Shown here: piece by piece, positions 3,398-39,407 of the stretch
Layout: every line of letters starts with the position of its first letter
Position numbering within the stretch: position 1 is the stretch's first letter
Assembly: GCA_902558095.1 (NCBI GenBank)
Contig: CACECP010000002.1
Coordinates: 62,001-126,000, forward strand
DNA: 64,000 nt
Reading direction: 5' to 3'
From: an uncultured SAR86 cluster bacterium
Lineage (GTDB): Bacteria > Pseudomonadota > Gammaproteobacteria > Magnimaribacterales > D2472
Notes under the pieces: model-generated
What the model was told of the DNA's origin: nothing
What the model saw: the letters and a program-made list of their open reading frames with translations, nothing else
The model's database searches: none
Made by a program: the position numbers and the translations under genes

Positions 3398-3604
3398 GTG
3401 ATACTAAAATTAATTTTGCCTTTTTTAATTTTTTTCATTATTGGGCTCGCTAGAATATACCTAACAAAAGTTTTGCCTTCAAAACGAAATAAAAGATCTG
3501 AGCAAATGTTAAGTTGTTCTGCTTGTGGAACTTTTGTTCACGAATCTTTAGTAGTTAAAAAAAATGGGGACAGTTTCTGTTCAGAAGATTGTTCTATGTC
3601 TTAA
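3398..3604 (+). CDS. Small PP0621-like membrane protein with Cys-rich C-terminus
   Basis: N-terminal TM helix plus CSACGTFVHESLVVKKNGDSFCSEDC. Confidence 0.7.
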   Translation: MILKLILPFLIFFIIGLARIYLTKVLPSKRNKRSEQMLSCSACGTFVHESLVVKKNGDSFCSEDCSMS

Positions 3605-6600
3605 TCTTTTTCAACAAAATAAACATAGCAGGAATATACAACAAAGCCGTCATTGTTGCTCCCAAAACTCCTATACTCATTGCCCATGCTAGTGGCCTAA
3701 AAAAGATATTGGCAAATATAAGCGGCAAGAATCCACCTAAAGTTGTAAGTGAAGTAGTTATGATATGTCTAGTTGATCTTATAACAACCTCAATTAAATC
3801 AGATTTTGTCATTGAAACTTGATTAGCTTTTTCTTTTATATGTGATAAGACAATAATAGAGTCATTGATTGAAAGACCTATTAAACCTAGAGCACCAACT
3901 GTACCAATAAATCCATAATTCTGCTGACCAAGTTTTAACCCTAAGAAAGAAAGTCCTATAGAAAAAATAGCTACAGATAAGATTAATAAGGTTTGCCTGA
4001 AAGAGTTAAGTGCAAAGACTAAACCAAAAGTAATTAACAAAAGATATATTATTGCAGATGAATATATTTGAGATTGAGATTGGCCCCTAGATTCAGCCTC
4101 ACCACCAACAATTATTGAATATCCTGGAGGCAAGTTGCTTTCAAATTCATTAAATTTTTCTTCTAGATATTGTTCAGTTTTATGTGGAAGTGTTCCTGTC
4201 CATATCCATCCTTCTACTTGATTAACTCTTTGACTATTTCGTCTTGTTACGTATGAGGAAGTTTTATTAATTGTTGCTTGTCCATAATTACCTATAAAGT
4301 CAATTCCATCCTTGGAGGGAATAGAAAGATAGCCAGTATTGCCTATGATATCTGAGGACTCTCTTATACCTTTAACTCTTATTGGTATTTCTTTATTTGA
4401 GTCAAGCATTGAGCTTACAACAATTCCATTATTTTCTGCATATAACTCATTAACTAATAGCTCAGTATTCTTTCCAGAAAGGGAAACATTAGAACTATTA
4501 AATTCAAATTCTATATTAGTATTTGAATAGCCTGCTAAGGACTTTGTATGACTCACATCTGGTGCATCATTAATAATTAATTCTAATTCAGAGCCAATAG
4601 CCCTCAAAACGTTTTCATCGTCTCCAATAATAGAATATTGAATATCAGAAAATACTGGTGGTCCGGTTTGAAAACTATCTACAAAAATAATCAAATCTGA
4701 ATTTTGAGCAACCAACATCTTTGAAAGTTTTGGTAAATTTTCAATCATTTCATAGTAATCTTTTGCAAAGAAAACTGCCTGTGCATGATTATTGCCACCA
4801 TTTTTCTCCTCTCCGCCTACAATATTCATGAGCACTCTAGGCATCCATCTTCCAATAAACCAATAGTCTTTATCTAATTCAATAAGATTACTATCAATTA
4901 CCTGATTTCTTATTTCTTGAACTTTTTCAAGAGTCTTTGTTGAAGACGAATTTGTTGGAAGTTCTATATGAATTCGAAACATATCCCTATCATTTGCAGG
5001 AAAGAAATCTTTCGGAATAGAACCAAATATTAAAAATCCTAATAATGGTAAACAGATTGAAATCAATATTGCTCGCCTGGGTACATCAAAAGCCCAGGTA
5101 AGAAATTTTCTATATTTTTTAAGAATCTTCTGGTTTTTATATCCTTCTTCATGGACATTAATATTTGCAAAATAAGGTATGCGCTCCATATAGCTCATCA
5201 AGACAGGAACCATTATTAATGCTAATACTAATGATGAAATAATTGACATTATTACAGTCAACGCCATGCCGCCAACAAATTCAATACTGGAGCCCTCTCC
5301 AGTGACTATAGGCATAAACGCAAAAACAGTAGTTGCTGTTGCAGCTAATAAAGGTGTTGATATATGAACCAATGTTTGATTGATAGACTCTCTAATTGAA
5401 AGTCCAATTGATCTTCTATATTTATAATCTTCAACAACTATTATCCCATTGTCAATTAAGAGCCCTAAGGCAATAATTATTCCGGTAATAGATGTTTGGT
5501 GAAGAGGTAAATCTATTAATCTGCAACCAAGCAAAACCAAAGATACTGAAAATGGCAAAATAGCAGTTACTATTATTCCTGGCCTTATTCCTAAAAAAAA
5601 GAAACTGAGACTTAATACAAAAAAAGTTGCTAATGCAAAGCTTTTAATTAATTCTCCAAATTTACTGGATACGTATATCGACTCATCGTATATTCTTTCA
5701 ATTTGGAATTCTTCAGGTAATGTTAGTCGCATTTTATCAACTTGATCATCTACATTTTCAACATATTCAAATACCCTTTGTGAAAATGATCCTGTGGCAG
5801 ATACAGATAAGACTCTTTTACCGTTATATAAAAATATATCTTCAATTGGATTGGCTGGTTGCATTGAAACCTCAGCTATATCTTGAAGCCTAATAATTTC
5901 CGATTGATTTATTACTTTAACTGGTATTTCACCAATCTTTTGAGGAGTCGTTATATTATCTTTTAGTCTAATTAGAAATTCAGAATATTCGTCAGAAACC
6001 ACCCCGACAGGCTTCTTATTATCATATGATTTAATAGCTGTGCTTATTTCTTGGTATGTTAATCCCAGTGACGACATTTTTGCTGAATCAACCTCAACAA
6101 CTATTTCTTCTTCTGCCTCTCCATATATAGCTGTCTTTTCTGTTCCTGGAACGGAACTCAACCTCTTCTGAAGTTGCTGTGCCAATCTAGACATCATGAT
6201 GATTGGAGTATTTCCTTCGCCCTTCCAATCAATAATGTATTCAACGGTTATAGGTGGTCCTGATGACCTTTCAAGCAACATTGTTACTCCATCAGGCGTT
6301 TCTATTTGATCTATCTTATTTTGAACTTTTGACCAAACTTCTTCTATTAATAATGGTGGTACATTTTGTTGCAATTCTACTAGTGTCTCAGAAAAGCCTT
6401 GAGTAATTACTGATGATAAATCCTCGATATCAAGCTCAACGATCTCTCTCAGTTTGTTTTCAAGATTATCTACAACTTGGGTTTCTATCCTCTCAGGAGT
6501 GGCTCCAGGATATGAAATGGTCACAGTTGCCCATCTTTCGGCTAGCTCTGGATTCTCTTGAATTGGTAAAGTAGATATTGAAGAGATGCCAGAAAGTAAT

Positions 6601-6662
6601 ATAAAAGCTAAAGTTAAAAAGAGAATTCTTGGTCTATCAAGAAATATATTTATGAATTTCAT
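3594..6662 (-). CDS. RND (AcrB/HAE1-like) efflux permease
   Basis: 1022 aa; PIQENPELAERWATVTISYPGATPERIETQV, GLLIDNGIIVVEDY, typical RND TM pattern. Confidence 0.95.
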   Translation of the reverse strand: MKFINIFLDRPRILFLTLAFILLSGISSISTLPIQENPELAERWATVTISYPGATPERIETQVVDNLENKLREIVELDIEDLSSVITQGFSETLVELQQNVPPLLIEEVWSKVQNKIDQIETPDGVTMLLERSSGPPITVEYIIDWKGEGNTPIIMMSRLAQQLQKRLSSVPGTEKTAIYGEAEEEIVVEVDSAKMSSLGLTYQEISTAIKSYDNKKPVGVVSDEYSEFLIRLKDNITTPQKIGEIPVKVINQSEIIRLQDIAEVSMQPANPIEDIFLYNGKRVLSVSATGSFSQRVFEYVENVDDQVDKMRLTLPEEFQIERIYDESIYVSSKFGELIKSFALATFFVLSLSFFFLGIRPGIIVTAILPFSVSLVLLGCRLIDLPLHQTSITGIIIALGLLIDNGIIVVEDYKYRRSIGLSIRESINQTLVHISTPLLAATATTVFAFMPIVTGEGSSIEFVGGMALTVIMSIISSLVLALIMVPVLMSYMERIPYFANINVHEEGYKNQKILKKYRKFLTWAFDVPRRAILISICLPLLGFLIFGSIPKDFFPANDRDMFRIHIELPTNSSSTKTLEKVQEIRNQVIDSNLIELDKDYWFIGRWMPRVLMNIVGGEEKNGGNNHAQAVFFAKDYYEMIENLPKLSKMLVAQNSDLIIFVDSFQTGPPVFSDIQYSIIGDDENVLRAIGSELELIINDAPDVSHTKSLAGYSNTNIEFEFNSSNVSLSGKNTELLVNELYAENNGIVVSSMLDSNKEIPIRVKGIRESSDIIGNTGYLSIPSKDGIDFIGNYGQATINKTSSYVTRRNSQRVNQVEGWIWTGTLPHKTEQYLEEKFNEFESNLPPGYSIIVGGEAESRGQSQSQIYSSAIIYLLLITFGLVFALNSFRQTLLILSVAIFSIGLSFLGLKLGQQNYGFIGTVGALGLIGLSINDSIIVLSHIKEKANQVSMTKSDLIEVVIRSTRHIITTSLTTLGGFLPLIFANIFFRPLAWAMSIGVLGATMTALLYIPAMFILLKKIKT

Positions 6663-6667
6663 ATTTT

Positions 6668-7645
6668 CTAATTAACTTTTTTGCCTTCAATAATCTTAGA
6701 TGCTCCACCTAAAACAACTAAATCACCGTTTTTTATAGTGCCGCTGACAAATGCATAATCATCTTCAAAATGGACTATTTCTACTATATCTCTTACGACA
6801 ATACTATTACTGTCGATTGTATATATTGTCCATAATCCCTGATCTGATTGAGATAAAGACTTTAAGGGCACCCAAGTACCTTTGGCTTGTTTAGATATTT
6901 TTAATTGAAGGTTCGCTATTGAGCCAGGATTAAAAAATTCACTAAATTCAAAAATTGCTAATCTACTATTTGAGCCGCCTGGCGACATTGGCGCCAGCTT
7001 AGCAAAGGTTGCTTTTACTATTTCACCATCAAACTCAAAATCATATTCTTGATTAATTTGCATATCTTCTAAATAGATAACAGGTACAGAAATATGTGCT
7101 TCAACATAATTTGAATCGATGATCTCAAGTATAGGGATCCCTGAGTTAATGACTGTACCTGTATCTAAAAACCTATTTTGTATTACGCCGTTAAATGGAG
7201 AAATAATGTTTGTTTGCTCTAACTTAACTTTAAAAAAGTCATATTGTGATTCTGCAACAATAAAATCAGATTTAGCTTTATCAAGATCCTGAATTGATAT
7301 ATGTCCTTGCAACCTTAAATCTTCAAATCTTTCAAGAACTTGTTTTGATAAATCATATTTTGCCTTTGCTTGATTTAACTGAGCATTAGACTCTCTGTCA
7401 TCTAGTTTGGCTAAAATATCTCCTTTATTTACATAGTCACCAACATCAACATAAATATTTTTAATTTTGCCTGGAATTTCAAATGCCAATTTAGATTGCT
7501 CAATTGGTAAAAGTTTTCCAGGAAAAGTTTTAGTAATCGAATAAGAATCTAATATTTTTACTTCTAAGACTTCGATTGACATGAGCTTTAAAGAAGCAAA
7601 TAAACAAAAAATTGTTATATGTTTAAATATTTTAAAATTTGACAT
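6668..7645 (-). CDS. RND efflux periplasmic adaptor (membrane fusion protein)
   Basis: GKIKNIYVDVGDYVNKGDILAKLDDRE lipoyl-like motif and HlyD/AcrA architecture; in operon with RND permease. Confidence 0.93.
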   Translation of the reverse strand: MSNFKIFKHITIFCLFASLKLMSIEVLEVKILDSYSITKTFPGKLLPIEQSKLAFEIPGKIKNIYVDVGDYVNKGDILAKLDDRESNAQLNQAKAKYDLSKQVLERFEDLRLQGHISIQDLDKAKSDFIVAESQYDFFKVKLEQTNIISPFNGVIQNRFLDTGTVINSGIPILEIIDSNYVEAHISVPVIYLEDMQINQEYDFEFDGEIVKATFAKLAPMSPGGSNSRLAIFEFSEFFNPGSIANLQLKISKQAKGTWVPLKSLSQSDQGLWTIYTIDSNSIVVRDIVEIVHFEDDYAFVSGTIKNGDLVVLGGASKIIEGKKVN

Positions 7646-7663: not shown

Positions 7664-7683
7664 ATGTGAGCAGTGTAAACATT
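7664..7683 (+). promoter_or_regulatory. Putative TetR operator, site 1 (ATGTGAGCAGTGTAAACATT)
   Basis: 20-bp repeat matching site 2 at 18/20 positions and the tolC site at 19/20; imperfect palindrome in the divergent tetR/MFP intergenic region. Confidence 0.75.
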
Positions 7684-7691
7684 AATGTATT

Positions 7692-7711
7692 ATGTTAGCA
7701 GTGTCAACATT
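7692..7711 (+). promoter_or_regulatory. Putative TetR operator, site 2 (ATGTTAGCAGTGTCAACATT)
   Basis: Direct repeat of site 1 at 28-bp spacing; palindromic frame ATGTTnnCAnTGnnAACAT. Confidence 0.75.
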
Positions 7712-7721
7712 TATATAGAAT

Positions 7722-8342
7722 ATGAAATCTTATCATCACGGAAACCTAAAACAAGAACTCATAGACTGTGCCTGCAGGTTATGTGAAAGAGATGGTTATA
7801 CAAAATTAAGCATTAGAACTTTGGCTAAAGAAAGTGGAGTTTCGCAAACTGCGCCCTATCGTCACTTTGAAACTAAAGAAGCATTATACGCATCAGTAGC
7901 ACAAGATGGTTTTAATAAACTATCAAAGGCTATCCATGTTGATGTTGATAAAAAAGTTAACAAAAAACAAATCGTTGATATGGCAATTAAATATATTGAG
8001 TTTGGTCTCAAAAATGCTAATACCTATGATCTTATGTTTGGTACTGCTGTTGGTAATTTTGCTGAATATCCTGAATTGCTTGAATCAGCAAATTCAAGCT
8101 ATGAAAATTTTAGATCGAGTTTTTCTCAATTAGCCAATGATAGCGATGAAGTTATAGCTTTTAAATGTATTACTTTATGGTCGATGGTTCATGGTCTTGT
8201 GGGAATATTAAGAAAAGCTCAAGTGGTTGCAGATAATTCCATGGTAAATCCTGAAGCTGGCCCTATGTCGTCTGCTATTCTCATAGCTGGCAATCTGGAA
8301 GATCATTTAGATAAAGTTATTTCTGGAATAATTGAAAATTAA
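7722..8342 (+). CDS. TetR/AcrR family transcriptional regulator
   Basis: N-terminal HTH: LSIRTLAKESGVSQTAPYRHFETKEALYASVA; divergent from RND operon. Confidence 0.93.
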   Translation: MKSYHHGNLKQELIDCACRLCERDGYTKLSIRTLAKESGVSQTAPYRHFETKEALYASVAQDGFNKLSKAIHVDVDKKVNKKQIVDMAIKYIEFGLKNANTYDLMFGTAVGNFAEYPELLESANSSYENFRSSFSQLANDSDEVIAFKCITLWSMVHGLVGILRKAQVVADNSMVNPEAGPMSSAILIAGNLEDHLDKVISGIIEN

Positions 8343-8807
8343 TTATTTATATTTACCATCAACATAAGTTAAAGTAGATATCTCATTAGTGTGATTTGCA
8401 TTCTCAACAAGTCCAACAACAATTGTATGGGTGTGATATGAAGTCAACTTATCTACTTTGCAAAATATATTTGCTTGAGCATTAGATAAAAAGGGTATTT
8501 CTTCTGTATCCCAATTTTCATTATTAAATCTTTCTTCATAGCTTTCTTCATCTGAACAGATATTTGACAGCTCCTCTTGATCTTTTTTCAACAAGTTGAT
8601 GCAAAACTTAGAGCCTATTTGGAGTGTGTCATGAATTCTTGAAGACTTATTAATACATATTAGTAGACTTGGAGGATCCATTGATATGGATGTAACAGAT
8701 GAGACAGTTATTGCATTTGAATTTCCATTATCATCTTTGTTAGACATGATGCTTACTGAATAAATATATCTGCGCATAGCTAGTCTAAAATTATCTTGAA
8801 TGCTCAT
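8343..8807 (-). CDS. Flavin reductase-like domain protein
   Basis: RLAMRRYIYSVSIMSNKDDNGNSNAITVSSVTSISMDPPSLLICINKSSRIHDTL, FMN-binding flavin reductase signature. Confidence 0.85.
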   Translation of the reverse strand: MSIQDNFRLAMRRYIYSVSIMSNKDDNGNSNAITVSSVTSISMDPPSLLICINKSSRIHDTLQIGSKFCINLLKKDQEELSNICSDEESYEERFNNENWDTEEIPFLSNAQANIFCKVDKLTSYHTHTIVVGLVENANHTNEISTLTYVDGKYK

Positions 8808-37860: not shown

Positions 37861-38031
37861 CCTAATTTGCCTTACGAATTAATTTATAAAAACCTTTTAT
37901 AAGATAGTTTTTCATAAAATTTTTTAATTATGATAGCTATTCTACTCTAAACAAATAGTTAAAAACGTTTTATTTGAATTTTTTAAAAAATTTATGGTCT
38001 TATTTATATTATAATCTTGACTAAATATTAT

Positions 38032-38051
38032 AATGTTTACACTGCTTACAT
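38032..38051 (-). promoter_or_regulatory. Putative TetR operator at the tolC promoter
   Basis: Reverse complement ATGTAAGCAGTGTAAACATT differs from the 7664 site at one position and from the 7692 site at two; overlaps TATAAT at 38029-38034. Confidence 0.72.
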
Positions 38052-38072
38052 TAATTAGGTTAAAATACACTT

Positions 38073-39407
38073 ATGAAAATTAATTTCTATAAAAAATTTT
38101 TCGTAATTTTAGTCTCCTCTTCTTATTTGTCTTCTGAGAATATTCTAGAAATATATAACGAAGCATTAGAAAATGATCCCACATATAAAGCAGCCGAATA
38201 TTCATATCTTGCAGATAAAGAGATTGTTGTTCAAGGAAGAGCTGCTCTACTTCCTAGCATTACATTAAGTGGGTCAACTAACTGGAATGAGTATTACCAA
38301 AACGATGTTTTACAACAAGAGTATAATTCTTTCTCAAAATCAGCCAGAATAACTCAACCATTGTTCAGATTAGATACATGGTTTAATTTTAAAAGATCAA
38401 AATCGTTAACAAATGCAGCTGAAGCAGACTTTGCATATGAGCAGCAAAGTCTTTTATTGAGAACTGCTGAGTTGTATTTTGGAGTCCTTAGGGCAATTGA
38501 TAATTTAAACGCTGCTATATCAGAAGAAAAAGCAATAAAAAAACAATTAGATCAAGCTCAACAAAGGTACGAGGTAGGTTTATCTGCTATAACTGGTGTT
38601 CAAGAAGCGCAACTTGCATATGATTTAAGTAAAGCATCTAAAATAAATGCTGAAGGTAATTTGTATTCTGCTAAAGAGGCTTTAAATGCTCTAATTGGAA
38701 GAGAAATATTTTCATTAAACGAATTGGGGGATGATCTTAATATCTCACCTCCATATCCTAACTCTAAAGAAGAATGGGTCGAGCTGGCCTTAAAAAATAA
38801 TTATCAATTAAAAGCCTCACAATTAAGAAAAGATGCTGCTAAAAGTAATGCAAGAAATGCTGCATCAAATCATTTACCAAAGATTGATATCGTTGGATCT
38901 GGATCAGAATCAGAAACAAACCAATTCAATTATGAAGGGTTTGAAATAAATGGTCAGGGCATACCTGTTCCTGCTGTAACTGGTAGAAGAAATTATGCAA
39001 TTCAAATGAGTGTTCCAATTTTTCAAGGCGGAGCCGTTAGCTCAAGAAGAAAGCAAGCATACTCTCAATACAATCAAGCTGACGAGAATACATTGTTTAC
39101 AGAAAGAAGGGTAATACAAGAAGTTAGATCCCAATTCTCAAATGTTGTAACGTTGGTTGCTAATGTTACTGCACAAAAACAAGCAGTTATTTCTGCAACA
39201 AGTGCTCTTGAGGCTACTCAAGTTGGATATAAGGTAGGTACAAGAAATGTGGTCGACCTTCTTCAAGCTGAAAAGAATCTTTACAGCGCAGAAAAAAATC
39301 TAGCCAATGCAAAATATGACTATATTCTTGCCAATCTTAGACTAGCATTAGCTGCAGGAACAATTAGTCCAAGCGATATTGTAGATATTAATAATCTTCT
39401 AAAATAA
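38073..39407 (+). CDS. tolC: TolC-family outer membrane efflux protein
   Basis: Signal peptide; IYNEALENDPTYKAAEYSYLADKEIVVQGRAALLPSITLSGS; RRNYAIQMSVPIFQGGAVSSRRKQA; GTRNVVDLLQAEKNLYSAEKNLANAKYDYILANLRL. Confidence 0.93.
   Translation: MKINFYKKFFVILVSSSYLSSENILEIYNEALENDPTYKAAEYSYLADKEIVVQGRAALLPSITLSGSTNWNEYYQNDVLQQEYNSFSKSARITQPLFRLDTWFNFKRSKSLTNAAEADFAYEQQSLLLRTAELYFGVLRAIDNLNAAISEEKAIKKQLDQAQQRYEVGLSAITGVQEAQLAYDLSKASKINAEGNLYSAKEALNALIGREIFSLNELGDDLNISPPYPNSKEEWVELALKNNYQLKASQLRKDAAKSNARNAASNHLPKIDIVGSGSESETNQFNYEGFEINGQGIPVPAVTGRRNYAIQMSVPIFQGGAVSSRRKQAYSQYNQADENTLFTERRVIQEVRSQFSNVVTLVANVTAQKQAVISATSALEATQVGYKVGTRNVVDLLQAEKNLYSAEKNLANAKYDYILANLRLALAAGTISPSDIVDINNLLK

Follow-up and report, generated by a model that had tools for sequence, protein, structure and literature searches.

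The 64-kb stretch of SAR86 DNA analyzed here (the window) encodes the three component types of a putative RND tripartite exporter: a periplasmic adaptor, an AcrB-type inner-membrane permease and a TolC-type outer-membrane channel (matching TIGR01730, PF00873 and TIGR01844). The adaptor gene (325 aa, positions 6668-7645, reverse strand; TIGR01730, 1.1e-51) is the first of the pump operon and precedes the permease gene (1022 aa, 3594-6662, reverse strand; PF00873, 1.2e-110). Divergent from the adaptor gene lies tetR (7722-8342, forward strand), which encodes a 206-aa TetR-family regulator with a YHHGNL N-terminus, the likely operator-binding protein. Its helix-turn-helix matches TetR_N above the Pfam gathering score (PF00440, 1.8e-10) and its C-terminal ligand and dimer domain matches TetR_C_33 (PF13305, 9.1e-07, 29.9 bits vs 26.8); it scores 23.9 bits on the NCBIfam AcrR equivalog against a cut-off of 271, and the closest solved chain by sequence is PDB 3on2. 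The 3' end of tetR abuts a RutF/HpaC-like flavin reductase gene (8343-8807). Further along the window, tolC (444 aa, 38073-39407, forward strand) matches TIGR01844 above its curated cut-off (1.9e-96), and its best match, at 6e-101, is the TolC equivalog, under that model's cut-off. A preliminary description of this DNA had called tolC unlinked, which holds in that it forms a separate operon; in relatives with both genes on one contig, however, tolC sits about 30-36 kb from tetR in a conserved block.

Three copies of a 19-bp palindrome, ATGTnnnCAnTGnnnACAT, form the core of the sites that connect these genes. Two exact copies lie in the shared divergent promoter of tetR and the RND operon (7664-7710): a pump-proximal operator, ATGTGAGCAGTGTAAACAT, at 7664-7682, 18 bp from the adaptor ATG, and 28 bp from it a tetR-proximal operator, ATGTTAGCAGTGTCAACAT, at 7692-7710, 11 bp before the tetR ATG. 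This pair is conserved in most relatives. The third copy, ATGTTTACACTGCTTACAT, at 38033-38051, lies upstream of tolC, with 21 bp between its end and the ATG, and stands out as a phylogenetic footprint. The three 20-mers of the preliminary description are all present where it had placed them and, aligned in one orientation, differ at positions 5 and 14 only, as it had stated.

The exact ATGTnnnCAnTGnnnACAT frame occurs three times in the window versus 0.01 times expected, and none of 100 dinucleotide shuffles reached three. A genome-wide search, which the preliminary description had suggested, returned no further exact match in the host SAR86 assembly (1.09 Mb in 24 contigs), which is about 80% complete, so that further targets in its own genome may be missed. 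Four places match with one mismatch, two of them within long ORFs and two upstream of genes that show no sign of a role in efflux; the one at C1:63776 (L005) was rejected as an operator because it lies inside a 501-aa ORF. Across the 107 genomes of the SAR86 family, a pattern search found exact sites in 93, compared to 0-1 matches per genome for a reversed-pattern control. A chance similarity or a dispersed repeat would have to account for the excess in the window, for the lack of other copies in the assembly and for sites at the same promoters in dozens of genomes; we rejected this reading on the shuffles, the reversed-pattern controls and the conservation, and give it a vanishingly small probability. 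The operator observation is real and far above chance.

The promoter of tolC contains two candidate boxes. The TATAAT sequence noted in the preliminary description does overlap the operator (38029-38034), but it is not clearly the -10 element, as a second box, TA[AG]AAT, is nearer the ATG. In the window this box reads TAAAAT (38061-38066, forward strand), 6 nt before the tolC ATG, and could be the -10 of a leaderless mRNA. All 25 relatives compared (tolC loci L076-L104) have the TA[AG]AAT box at a constant distance of 6-7 nt upstream of the ATG, which suggests a leaderless tolC message; the operator would then lie close to the -35 region. A sigma-70 scan of both promoters revealed no excess of sites over shuffles, to within about one standard deviation.

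Conservation across the SAR86 family extends to both promoters. At least one exact site, and usually two, was present in the tetR promoter at all 30 of the best tetR loci. Before tolC, the site is exact in 70 of the 92 family genomes with tolC and present with at most one mismatch in 76, counts that come from a manual tally of listed site positions against tolC positions; the conservation check that the preliminary description had proposed thus finds the site largely kept. Exact tolC sites were found in 26 of 30 genomes of the host's own genus (with three more at one mismatch), in 18 of 20 of genus g5 (with two more at one mismatch), and in every genome of g2 (1/1), g4 (3/3), g6 (4/4), g8 (1/1), g9 (15/15) and g10 (2/2). 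None was exact in g3 (0/9) or in g7 (0/7, with one at one mismatch). The 16 losses comprise one genome without tetR (G077), the nine of g3, in which the TetR recognition helix is changed, and six of g7; for four of these six the reading was direct or relied on whole-genome counts alone, and an exact site near tolC is present in none.

These losses bear on whether the tolC site is functional at all. TetR could act on its own pump only, the tolC site being a conserved relic or weak site and tolC being constitutive for other partners. In known bacteria TolC is shared by several pumps, which fits such a role, as does the lack of a tolC site in g3 and in most g7 genomes. Against it, mean pairwise identity among 25 own-genus genomes, all with an exact site, is 0.96 over the tolC operator versus 0.44 and 0.47 over its flanks, indicating that selection maintains the site, and the operator's placement so close to the ATG puts it within the promoter region. 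We therefore regard a TetR confined to its own pump as very improbable. Six of the seven g7 genomes retain tetR and its own operator while lacking the tolC site, so the tolC link can be lost; this qualifies the regulon claim and does not refute it. The tolC link is not universal.

Several lines of evidence point to the linked TetR (7722-8342) as the likely binder of the palindrome: the sites in its own promoter, a joint loss of gene and site, a parallel shift of recognition helix and site, and distant homologs that carry the palindrome. The joint loss is a single clean case, in the 80%-complete assembly of G077, where the flavin reductase and adaptor genes lie 3 nt apart with tetR absent between them (L293); here the tolC promoter has no operator (the best match has four mismatches), and none was found in the genome. 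The parallel shift is seen in genus g3, whose TetR has the recognition helix SATAIYRHY versus SQTAPYRHF, and whose tetR-promoter sites are variants with one or two mismatches, with none at tolC.

A different, unlinked regulator, such as a global stress factor, might instead bind the palindrome, with tetR as merely one of its targets. Seven genomes with sites have no detected tetR (G043, G058, G059, G062, G092, G099 and G028), as such a regulator would allow. They also have no adjacent adaptor gene, the whole pump locus being absent from these assemblies, so they neither support nor contradict it. The coincidence of tetR absence with tolC-site absence in G077, and that of the motif shift with the recognition-helix change in g3, both speak against an unlinked factor, as does the occurrence of the motif together with this TetR subfamily in different classes and phyla, where it lies at the promoter of the regulator gene itself. 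We consider an unlinked regulator unlikely.

Outside the SAR86 family, 8 of 21 class-level TetR homologs, one of the eight from the same order, have a site within 200 bp upstream that deviates at no more than one position; p-values for these upstream sites rest on single-base shuffles and are rough. The palindrome was also found upstream of homologs in a pond metagenome bacterium and a Caulobacterales MAG (L146 and L147), and two Sorangium homologs have an upstream site with two mismatches. Proteins of this YHHGNL/YHHGDL subfamily with TetR_C_33 are alike in their helix-turn-helix, their N-terminus and the palindrome at their own promoter. Eight genomes at class level that encode such a TetR (one belongs to the same order) were examined, and five contain exact sites. 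In four of these five an exact site lies at the tetR promoter; all other exact matches fall within ORFs, and those four show no second exact site in an intergenic region. Outside SAR86 the subfamily was seen with the site at its own promoter only (four genomes), whereas SAR86 adds tolC and other genes. Judging by the eight outside genomes examined, SAR86 appears to have added the control of tolC.

Together our results suggest that the 19-bp palindrome is very probably the operator of the TetR encoded at 7722-8342, through which this protein would control its own divergent promoter, the pump and tolC. The computed evidence supports the proposal of the preliminary description that one repressor may co-regulate the pump and adaptor with tolC: the sites exist, have no other exact copy in the assembly, have been kept in evolution and go along with TetR proteins of this subfamily. 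In the mechanism that we infer, which includes physical binding, repression as its effect, a ligand and the pump's use of this TolC, a TetR dimer would bind both operators of the divergent promoter from which tetR itself is transcribed, resulting in autoregulation and repression of the adaptor and permease operon. It would also bind the single operator over the tolC promoter and block transcription there. TetR would be released by an inducer, probably a substrate of the pump, and the adaptor, permease and channel would then rise together.

Relatives of the host carry additional exact sites, which form a small recurring gene set: they precede an AurF-like diiron protein, a pair consisting of a rhodanese and a small secreted protein, and another RND adaptor. 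As this set recurs and fits efflux and detoxification, the genes do not appear to be random. The AurF-like protein has 368 aa and matches PF11583 (2.7e-11). Among 30 diiron gene loci, nearly all from the host's own genus, six have an exact site and four a site with one mismatch, and these sites share one position, shortly after a TATAAAAT-like box. The host's own ortholog, which lies outside the window (G000:C12:19513-20616, L311), has no site, the best match having five mismatches, and we rejected it as a member of the host's own regulon for lack of an operator. Over the SAR86 family, the AurF-like diiron protein (L311) is about 76-92% identical to the query.

The second recurring target is a divergent arrangement in which the operator lies between a rhodanese-domain gene and a gene for a secreted protein of about 90 aa (L036, L275 and others, in g5 and g7); in a g9 variant, a 96-aa PAN-like protein takes the place of the small secreted protein. 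Genus g9 also has a 289-aa RND adaptor under the same operator (L250, L263, L266 and L267). A further site (L241) is located within an ORF and was set aside as a likely chance match. Across the wider family, TetR probably controls a small regulon for efflux and detoxification, whose extra targets are not detectable in the host's own genome. Going further, we lean slightly towards a family-wide regulon under one pump-linked TetR that would comprise the pump, tolC, the AurF-like diiron oxygenase, the rhodanese and small secreted protein and, in some cases, another RND adaptor, with targets gained and lost between genera. Such a regulon would tie the export of a recurring marine toxic compound to its oxidation.

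By analogy, AcrR of E. coli is the nearest functional parallel, as acrAB too has a local, autoregulated TetR-family repressor divergent from the RND adaptor and permease operon. PMC9769551 describes further efflux and detoxification targets of AcrR (mdtJI and puuA) and a route by which AcrR reaches tolC via marRAB and soxRS, that is, MarA and SoxS. That route is indirect, whereas the SAR86 operator sits directly in the tolC promoter. The E. coli MarA/SoxS/Rob marbox regulon is described as one factor and one site type acting on acrAB and on a separate tolC (Zhang, Rosner and Martin 2008, listed in PMC9769551). The SAR86 arrangement is alike in that a single kind of site is common to the pump operon and a separate tolC, but it differs in its players, with a palindrome and a pump-adjacent TetR-family protein in place of AraC/XylS activators on marboxes. 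Marboxes are asymmetric sites; with a linked regulator of the TetR type and a palindromic site, the system in the window is not of the mar/sox/rob type. No SAR86 TetR/tolC regulon, nor any paper with this operator, was found in the literature searched, whose coverage excludes most subscription papers. Since regulation of pumps by TetR proteins and joint pump and tolC regulation by mar/sox/rob are already known, the novelty would lie in the direct link of a TetR to tolC.

Members of SAR86 are abundant in the sea, streamlined and for the most part uncultured, and few regulatory circuits have been described in them. The system proposed here would provide a concrete SAR86 regulon, open to in vitro tests, in which operator, regulator and targets are all defined. 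It would also offer a case of regulon evolution, in which a type of repressor seen elsewhere at its own promoter only is here found also at an outer-membrane channel gene. Many relatives add an oxygenase-like gene to the putative regulon, and natural losses serve as controls. If the family-wide regulon is real, the oxidation of a recurring marine toxic compound would be coupled to its export.
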